From: Nitrososphaeria archaeon
GTDB taxonomy: Archaea > Thermoproteota > Nitrososphaeria > Nitrososphaerales > JARVJX01
DNA length: 36,203 nt
Assembly: GCA_029775995.1 (NCBI GenBank)
Contig: JARVJX010000004.1
Span: forward strand, 1 to 36,203
Reading direction: 5' to 3'
How positions within the stretch are numbered: position 1 is the stretch's first letter; the number at the start of each line of letters is the position of its first letter. Below are positions 975 through 2,498 of this stretch, one piece after another. Made by a program: the position numbers and the translations under genes. The notes beneath the pieces were generated by a model that worked only from the letters and a program-made list of their open reading frames with translations, was not told the DNA's origin and made no database searches.

Positions 975-1006
975 ATCTATATTATCTTTGGTGATGTCAA
1001 AGAGAG

Positions 1007-1032
1007 GGTTCTGTTAACTTCATGTCCATGAG
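1007..1032 (+). repeat. left terminal inverted repeat
   Basis: 24/26 match to reverse complement of 2432-2457. Confidence 0.9.
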
Positions 1033-1047
1033 TTAACTTCCACCCAA

Positions 1048-2166
1048 TCAGCTGATTGCTTCACGCAACACCATCGCTCCCATTGCTGAGCCTTCATATG
1101 ACCTGCGAACCACACAGGCCTCTTTGAACCGAGACAACAAGTTTATAGCTGCATTCAAGTCTCGGTCGTGCTGGACTCCACAGTTGGGACATATCCAGCA
1201 CTTTTCAACAGTGAGGGCTTTGTTGATGAAACCACATTGAGAACAAGTCTTTGATGTATTTGATGCCCTCACATAATAAACAGGCACTCCTTCCCATCTT
1301 GCTTTGTAATCTATCTGCCTTTGTAATTCATGAAAGCTCCATCTATGTAACCTTCCCCTCATCCTTCTACCTTCACCATTACCTCTTCTATGGCTTTTGA
1401 GAATGTGAGTAAGCCTTTCCAATATAATCCCAGCCTTCATAGCTTTAGCTCTCTCTACAATTGCCTTAGATGCTTTATGAAGGGATTGGATTACACGCCT
1501 ACGCTCTCTCCATCCATACTTTGAAAGCAATCTTTGTTTTATCCTTCTGTCTCTATGAGTATCTTTAGCTATGCTTGCCCTTAGCTTACTGTATTGAAAC
1601 TTCATGTTAGCTATCTTTGATAAATCTACCTTCTCCCCATCACTTGATACTACGCTCTTCTCATTTATATCATAAGCGACCATTCTCAGAGGCTCCATCA
1701 AAAAGCTCTCTTTAGAGAACGCTACGATAACTGTGCTCGGAGTTATCGTGATGGAGCCTCTCTTGAGGTTCTCATCTCTTAAGAGTGATAACTGATATTC
1801 TCCACCCTTTAAAGGTATCAGCATAAATTCTCTCGGCTTTACAGGTATCTTTAATAGCATATAATTTAGCTGATAGGTTTGATTATCAAGCTTCATGAAT
1901 AAATGTTTGGCATAGGGTCTCTTCTTCCACCTTCTATTTCTCAACATAGAGAAGGCACATTCACAAGCATTTAAAATATAATGGGTATGTAATCCATAGC
2001 GTCTTTTGAAGTAATCATAGACCATAGTGATGAGTTGAAACCTATTCTTAGCTTTTCTCTCAAACCCTATCCTAATAGCTTCATTCACCATATCTCTGAA
2101 GGTTTCTAATAGCTGAAGTAGCTTATCTGTAGGTTGAATCTGAAATTGAACCGTTGTGGGATTCAT
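1048..2166 (-). CDS. tnpB: TnpB-family RNA-guided nuclease (IS605/IS1341 type)
   Basis: 372 aa; RuvC-like acidic positions in VAYDINEKSV, GIILERLTHI and DRDLNAAINLL; zinc finger CSQCGFINKALTVEKCWICPNCG. Confidence 0.9.
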   Translation of the reverse strand: MNPTTVQFQIQPTDKLLQLLETFRDMVNEAIRIGFERKAKNRFQLITMVYDYFKRRYGLHTHYILNACECAFSMLRNRRWKKRPYAKHLFMKLDNQTYQLNYMLLKIPVKPREFMLIPLKGGEYQLSLLRDENLKRGSITITPSTVIVAFSKESFLMEPLRMVAYDINEKSVVSSDGEKVDLSKIANMKFQYSKLRASIAKDTHRDRRIKQRLLSKYGWRERRRVIQSLHKASKAIVERAKAMKAGIILERLTHILKSHRRGNGEGRRMRGRLHRWSFHELQRQIDYKARWEGVPVYYVRASNTSKTCSQCGFINKALTVEKCWICPNCGVQHDRDLNAAINLLSRFKEACVVRRSYEGSAMGAMVLREAIS

Positions 2167-2195
2167 AGACTTTCATCCCTTCCCCCTCACCTCTA

Positions 2196-2420
2196 TAGGG
2201 ATTCATTGAGGGCCTTCGCCGCCAACGGTAAAGGACGGCACATGGAGAGTCTTAGACAGGCCCCTTCGGCTTATTGATTTCGCCACATATCGGGCATGTC
2301 CTGGACTTAGCATCAACCCTTTCAGGAGTGCTATGAACGTCTATAAAAATCTTTCTCTTTGGGAACTGCTGTACTACCCCTTTAACTCCGAACACAGTTG
2401 ATAATAGCCTAGGAAGCATA
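2196..2420 (-). pseudogene. probable remnant of a second TnpB C-terminus (zinc-knuckle region)
   Basis: Minus-strand translation MLPRLLSTVFGVKGVVQQFPKRKIFIDVHSTPERVDAKSRTCPICGEINKPKGPV* then, in another frame, MCRPLPLAAKALNESL. Resembles the TnpB C-terminal zinc-finger region; short and frame-disrupted. Confidence 0.45.
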
Positions 2421-2431
2421 TAAATATTAAT

Positions 2432-2457
2432 CTCATGAACATAAAGTTAACAGAACC
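2432..2457 (-). repeat. right terminal inverted repeat
   Basis: 24/26 match to 1007-1032; immediately followed by TSD copy aaagagag. Confidence 0.9.
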
Positions 2458-2498
2458 AAAGAGAGAAAGGTTTATTATCTTTGCCCCCTTCAGATAAC

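Follow-up and report, generated by a model that had tools for sequence, protein, structure and literature searches.

IS6-type ends on a group of archaeal tnpB elements whose TnpB probably remains coupled to its element

Contig JARVJX010000004.1 of a Nitrososphaeria archaeon (assembly GCA_029775995.1; order Nitrososphaerales) carries a small transposable element whose only detected gene encodes the RNA-guided nuclease TnpB, and whose ends are of the type found in the IS6 family of insertion sequences. The element lies in the stretch of 36,203 nt analyzed here (positions 1 to 36,203, referred to as the window), and belongs to a widespread, apparently undescribed archaeal group in which TnpB resides in an inverted-repeat transposon instead of an IS605 or IS607 element. 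The reading regarded here as likely is that of an old lineage of small (~1.2–1.45 kb) IS6-ended tnpB elements, which would be moved in trans by a DDE transposase while TnpB, still coupled to its element, attacks empty sites.

The window element is bounded by two inverted-repeat arms of 26 nt, complementary at 24 of 26 positions and both starting with GGTTCTGTTAAC, and is flanked by a perfect 8-bp target duplication, AAAGAGAG (coordinates are collected in Table 1). An exact 8-bp agreement at both outer edges of an inverted-repeat pair would be expected by chance about once in 65,000 cases. The sole gene found within the element is tnpB; no transposase gene, including Y1 and IS6 DDE transposases, was found inside it. 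The preliminary description of this DNA had proposed the same arrangement, which is borne out by the window sequence and gene content. The encoded protein matches the NCBIfam model guided_TnpB (NF040570) with 123.2 bits against a cut-off of 100, also matches Pfam PF07282, resembles solved TnpB and Cas12f proteins, and has all three RuvC residues in place. The ends and duplication had also been described as IS6-like, in agreement with autonomous IS6 elements from this order, which have ends GGTTCTGTTAACTTAAGC and GGCTCTGTTCAGTTAAC and 8-bp duplications; the window end GGTTCTGTTAACTT, compared with the autonomous end GGTTCTGTTAACTTAAGC in genome G031, is of the GGNTCTGTT type characteristic of IS6.

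The arrangement is not confined to the window. Related tnpB genes were sought in 150–400 genomes of the window's order and 398 of its phylum, yielding about 210 related loci in Nitrososphaerales and other Thermoproteota, and an element was counted when its inverted repeats agreed at 12 or more of 20 positions and its duplication at 7 or more of 8, the latter threshold being chosen because loci without real inverted repeats give chance duplications of 5–6/8. On this basis, 35 independent tnpB elements were recovered, and a later hold-out set gave 11 more, so that the search for other copies in related genomes suggested by the preliminary description ended with 46. These elements have GGTTCTG-type inverted repeats and 7–8/8-bp duplications, and most are 1.23–1.37 kb long and contain tnpB alone. 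The end sequence varies among elements, yet left matches right within one element (up to 20/20), as in the agreeing ends GGTTCTGTCCAGTCTTCGTTTGG of L087 and GGCTCTGTTAAATCTTCGGCTC of L115. Identical anatomy is found outside the window's order in L347, L348, L356, L361, L371, and L381, and the window's own genome holds decayed relatives on contigs C121 and C146, which have the same end type and retain part of the 3' end of tnpB.

The RuvC D/E/D residues are kept in 34/34, 31/34, and 32/34 of the inverted-repeat elements, respectively. In a FastTree tree of 148 TnpBs, nearly all inverted-repeat elements fall within one set of 129 rows that stands apart from the relatives of IS607 type, suggesting one old switch of ends, or a few. 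The exception is the degenerate L348, which this tree, built with FastTree only, places on the IS607 side, so that such ends may have been acquired a second time. Beyond the lineage, the nearest TnpBs sampled are the IS607-type loci L098, L349, L352, and L357, at ~36–41% identity. The window element had been described as the capture of a nuclease gene by a non-autonomous element; the absence of an internal transposase agrees with this, whereas a single capture does not fit an old and diverse lineage. Two further observations concern the ends. A 343-bp sequence with the same end type (GGTTCTGTTAACTCTTAG / GGTCCTGTTAACTTTTAG) and no clear duplication, at positions 1501–1843 of L014 (contig C97, 18115–18457), resembles a miniature inverted-repeat transposable element related to this group. 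Loci L103 (G005), L348 (G445), and L361 (G459), from three families, are tnpB elements with near-identical ends GGTTCTGGTGCATCTTCGAGTG and 7–8-bp duplications, which by their sequences look like one transposon type spreading between lineages.

One indication that TnpB is still connected with these insertions is a one-sided motif resembling a target-adjacent motif (TAM). The trimer scored lies immediately 5' of the left copy of the duplication in tnpB orientation, and among the 35 elements it was TTG in 8, TTT in 8, and TTA in 7. TT at −3/−2 occurred in 23/35 elements, compared with 4/35 on the mirror side (p = 5e-6) and 6/66 sides of 33 autonomous IS6 elements from G006 and G031 (p = 5e-9 against 23/35), these and the following p-values taking insertions as independent, related elements included. 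The IS6 controls are from the same order, with closely similar ends and 8-bp duplications. The TT peak lies exactly at −3/−2, with 23 occurrences versus 3–8 at other offsets. The TT rule was fixed before the hold-out loci were fetched, four of which had already been inspected earlier; TT was present in 6/11 of this set (p = 0.001 against IS6), giving a combined 29/46 versus 7/46 on the mirror side (p = 4e-6). Trimer likeness also follows TnpB relatedness (Mantel r = 0.28; 0/5000 permutations), and no such tracking was detected by the Mantel test for the adjacent flank, the duplication, or the mirror side. Were a guide to read the duplication and the right flank, its TAM would have to lie at the position where TTN is observed for the empty site to be recognized.

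The same motif could reflect the target preference of a DDE transposase, with TnpB, perhaps still active, playing no role in the insertion sites seen. The IS6 controls are mildly A/T-preferring with ATA as the commonest trimer, and an asymmetric transpososome is conceivable given the non-identical left and right ends. However, the scarcity of TT in the autonomous IS6 elements and on the mirror side of the tnpB elements, together with the dependence of the trimer on TnpB relatedness, argues against an IS6 preference, and this explanation is considered rather unlikely. It is also quite doubtful that TnpB, via TAM binding, helps to choose the DDE insertion site. If it did, a new insertion would be born with a TAM beside a guide matching its own empty site, and the elements would constitute an RNA-guided-nuclease-tied DDE system distinct from the Tn7-like CRISPR-associated transposons. 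Copies in one genome bear differing duplications (L232 versus L234; L115 versus L116), indicating that new insertions are not steered by the guide of the parent copy.

A second line of evidence comes from the right end, which is predicted to encode a covarying structured RNA, presumed to be the omegaRNA of TnpB. Across 33 elements, the terminal 130 nt share a common fold in which 90% of cells hold standard pairs; neither this pairing nor the covariation is matched in any of the shuffled controls (0/500), and pairing falls to 24–47% when the partners in the two outer stems are shifted by 1–3 nt. The terminal stem is formed by an inner arm (GAAGTTAACTC-type) paired with the inverted repeat itself, and the inner arm of the right end scores higher when paired with the inverted repeat of its own element than in swapped combinations (z = 5.1; 0/20,000). 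This covariation and own-pair preference suggest that the inverted repeat doubles as transposon end and 3' hairpin of the guide RNA. An Rfam search returned only a chance match (Hovlinc, 19 bits against a cut-off of 42). The predicted omegaRNA is presumably produced and loaded.

These results bear on whether tnpB could be passive cargo of a non-autonomous IS6 element, its RNA-guided function now irrelevant. The inverted repeats, duplication, and lack of a transposase in the window are compatible with such a role, and passenger genes are known, though rare, in the IS6 family (PMC7986276). However, the catalytic residues are conserved over deep divergence, the covarying guide-RNA structure extends into the inverted repeat, the one-sided TTN motif tracks TnpB phylogeny, and dozens of elements are involved rather than one, which together make passive carriage distinctly improbable. 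The preliminary description had further suggested that TnpB was decoupled from homing; this is unsupported, given the conserved RuvC residues, the RNA hairpin built from the inverted repeat, and the TTN located exactly 5' of the duplication.

Empty sites were searched for with the two flanks joined across one duplication copy, in two families. Contiguous junctions in which the duplicated 8 bp occur once were verified base by base for L201, L194, L249, L204, and L137, with support from 13 genomes for L201 (90–99% identity), 3 for L194, and 3 for L249. The empty site of L256 is more diverged (73–82%), with changes within the duplicated bases, and junction-spanning matches over the full query length were recorded, by coordinates only, for L221, L237, L213, L234, L232, L196, and L218. 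A junction match for L117 (69%, gapped) was judged uninformative as an empty site. The flanking trimer (TTG, TAT, ATA, TTA, or TTT) is already there in the inspected empty sites, and thus belongs to the target. Empty sites, proposed earlier as a check on the window insertion, were obtained for relatives (at least five inspected) and not for the window's own site. An alternative in which the elements would be usual tnpB elements of IS200/IS605 type (IS1341), with terminal hairpins that merely resemble inverted repeats, is extremely improbable: the right end does form a hairpin and TTN would be plausible as an IS605-type insertion motif, but the two ends of an element agree (up to 20/20), exact 8-bp duplications are frequent, the empty sites hold one duplication copy, and IS200/IS605 elements make no duplication (PMC3627910).

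The preferred reading of a mobile, IS6-ended element with a coupled TnpB can be set out as follows. An IS6-type DDE transposase acting in trans would move the element, and the 8-bp duplication observed at its edges would be made in this step. The tnpB gene and the right end encode the TnpB nuclease and its presumed omegaRNA, the right inverted repeat, as the covariation supports, forming the 3' hairpin of the RNA. By analogy with known TnpB proteins, the guide would begin exactly at the element edge and read the duplicated 8 bp and the right flank. The loaded nuclease could then cut empty alleles, and repair could copy the element back in, while the filled site would be spared, as its match ends after the TAM and 8 bp. 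The register fits, in that the motif in an empty site is followed by the duplication and right flank; in the window, the guide CTCTCTTTGACATCACCAAAG would follow TTT. TnpB is thus probably still coupled to its element. The window copy was later struck by an IS607 element, since internally deleted, that supplies the first codons of tnpB.

Several points weigh against this reading. About 40% of elements lack TTN, the mirror side of the hold-out set has TT in 3/11, and the independence of insertions assumed above bears on all the TT statistics. The window copy's own empty site was not found among 200 relatives. No single element with both a DDE transposase and tnpB was found among the loci examined, and the window's genome yielded only one IS6-type gene, which is truncated at the edge of a contig and has a presumed end that differs (GATACTGTCAAGTT). 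IS6 transposition is replicative. It leaves no obvious empty donor, so that the need to attack empty sites is not obvious, and this is a weak point of the mechanism.

The preliminary description suggested looking for a full IS6 element with matching inverted repeats; autonomous IS6 elements in G006 and G031 have closely similar ends, and no autonomous partner with proven matching ends was found in the window's genome. A candidate for the autonomous partner is L165 (G108, contig C41), which spans 2.0 kb and has perfectly matching ends (20/20; GGTTCTCCTAACTCCTCGGGAC), an 8/8 duplication, an IS240-type DDE gene, and a second open reading frame; it is put forward because its ends resemble those of the tnpB elements. 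Separately, L063 (G089) is a 2.45-kb IS6-like transposon with further open reading frames inside and an 8/8 duplication (AGATCTCA), whose DDE transposase has a seeming SWIM-type zinc finger.

Two features of the window copy were overlooked in the preliminary description: a nested IS607 element at ~2150–2379 and two clustered regularly interspaced short palindromic repeats (CRISPR) beside the insertion. The nested segment matches, in co-linear order and at 85–98%, both ends of an IS607 element that lies on contig C96 of the window's genome (L009: 1199–1249, 2808–2889, and 2960–3084), relative to which ~1.56 kb and 70 bp are missing. The C96 element has a broken serine recombinase that matches NF033518 (transpos_IS607). 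The right end of the insert supplies the first tnpB codons, homology to other TnpBs starting at residue 5; the reading frame remains open, and the native start and leader are disturbed. Judged by the traits of the IS607 family (a serine recombinase, absence of inverted repeats, and insertion at GG), the host element does not belong there; only the nested insert fits. In relatives, CTTAAATG-type boxes stand at the position equivalent to the TATA-like TTTATATGC of the window leader.

Table 1. Features of the tnpB element and its borders in the window
Feature	Position	Strand	Remarks
Target duplication, copy 1 (AAAGAGAG)	999..1006		CTCTCTTT in tnpB orientation, first 8 nt of predicted guide; identical to 2458–2465
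Predicted guide segment past right end (CTCTCTTTGACATCACCAAAG)	986..1006	-	Assumed length ~20 nt; position from known TnpB biology
Right-end terminal inverted repeat (CTCATGGACATGAAGTTAACAGAACC in tnpB orientation)	1007..1032	-	Also 3' hairpin of predicted omegaRNA; covariation
Predicted omegaRNA region, tnpB 3' part through right end	1007..1180	-	Approximate limits; covarying last 130 nt in 33 related elements
tnpB, 372 aa	1048..2166	-	RuvC D166/E250/D336; first codons MNPTT from nested IS607 right end
Internally deleted IS607 element at tnpB 5' end	2150..2379	-	Left end 2379–2329, right end 2329–2150
Left-end leader, TATA-like TTTATATGC	2380..2431	-	Presumed native tnpB promoter; sequence only
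Left-end terminal inverted repeat (GGTTCTGTTAACTTTATGTTCATGAG)	2432..2457	-	
Target duplication, copy 2 (AAAGAGAG)	2458..2465		
TAM-like TTT	2466..2468	-	Directly 5' of duplication in tnpB orientation: ...AAACCTTT, CTCTCTTT, GGTTCTG

The CRISPR repeats are two identical 30-nt units (GTTTGAATCGAACTATAGTAGGATTGAAAG) at 879–908 and 945–974, separated by a 36-nt spacer and adjoining the insertion. They stop 32 nt before it, which, for a spacer of unchanged length, would place the element inside a third spacer; 36 nt further along, the sequence starts with GTTT, as the repeat does, and is otherwise unlike one. On contig C56 (L013, 73–178), the left end of an IS607 element is truncated by the contig edge and has one copy of the window's CRISPR repeat (29/30) ~25 nt away. 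Upstream of the repeats, at 370–810, an open reading frame looks, by its sequence alone, like a MoaE-type molybdopterin synthase subunit.

Among known systems, a close parallel is provided by the Fanzor1/Fanzor2* nucleases, which are likewise TnpB-type proteins encoded, sometimes as the only gene, in inverted-repeat transposons with duplications (PMC3627910, PMC10711439), and whose inverted repeats are likewise predicted to enter the guide-RNA scaffold (PMC10711439). Fanzors differ in residing in eukaryotes or eukaryotic viruses, whereas the present elements are archaeal and have IS6-type ends; moreover, the Fanzor duplication has been described as taken into the scaffold, whereas here the variable 8 bp would belong to the guide and the TAM would lie outside them. 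Fanzors are also marked by a derived RuvC with a repositioned glutamate; in the alignment of archaeal TnpBs, a glutamate occupies the RuvC-II position. With the IS200/IS605 and tnpB-only IS1341 elements, the present group shares TnpB, a right-end (here presumed) omegaRNA, a left-edge TAM-like motif, and a compact single-gene form; IS200/IS605 elements use a Y1 transposase and have neither inverted repeats nor duplications, whereas the present elements have both and no Y1 inside. The IS607 family shares TnpB and includes the nearest outside relatives, and differs by its serine recombinase and its lack of inverted repeats or duplications (ends ...CCCACAACGGT here). Terminal inverted repeats of the GGNTCTGTT type and target duplications of 8 bp are shared with the IS6 family (PMC7986276), which encodes a DDE transposase, whereas the present element codes for an RNA-guided nuclease and can be at most a non-autonomous dependant.

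Prokaryotic tnpB-only elements have been described as lacking inverted repeats and duplications, in contrast to Fanzors in inverted-repeat transposons (PMC3627910), and TnpBs of IS200/IS605 and IS607 have been contrasted with Fanzors in many transposon types (PMC10711439). A review of the IS6 family lists a single passenger-gene member (ISDsp3, carrying a hypothetical protein) and does not mention tnpB (PMC7986276), and a survey of the thaumarchaeal mobilome counts IS200/IS605 and IS607 elements, also leaving tnpB unmentioned. A literature search found no report of IS6-type tnpB elements, though a large TnpB census (PNAS 2023) may mention them.

Prokaryotic TnpB has been described only with the Y1 transposases of IS200/IS605 and the serine transposases of IS607. 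In the archaeal elements, the guide RNA and target motif have apparently been re-fitted to new transposon ends, much as in the Fanzors of eukaryotes. A large archaeal IS6-type lineage, if true, would mean that refitting of the nuclease to a DDE-type transposon is possible in prokaryotes as well, in parallel to the Fanzors. As duplication, guide, and TAM stand in a fixed register, the part that TnpB plays for its element would become testable where the ends are classical and the empty sites recognizable.
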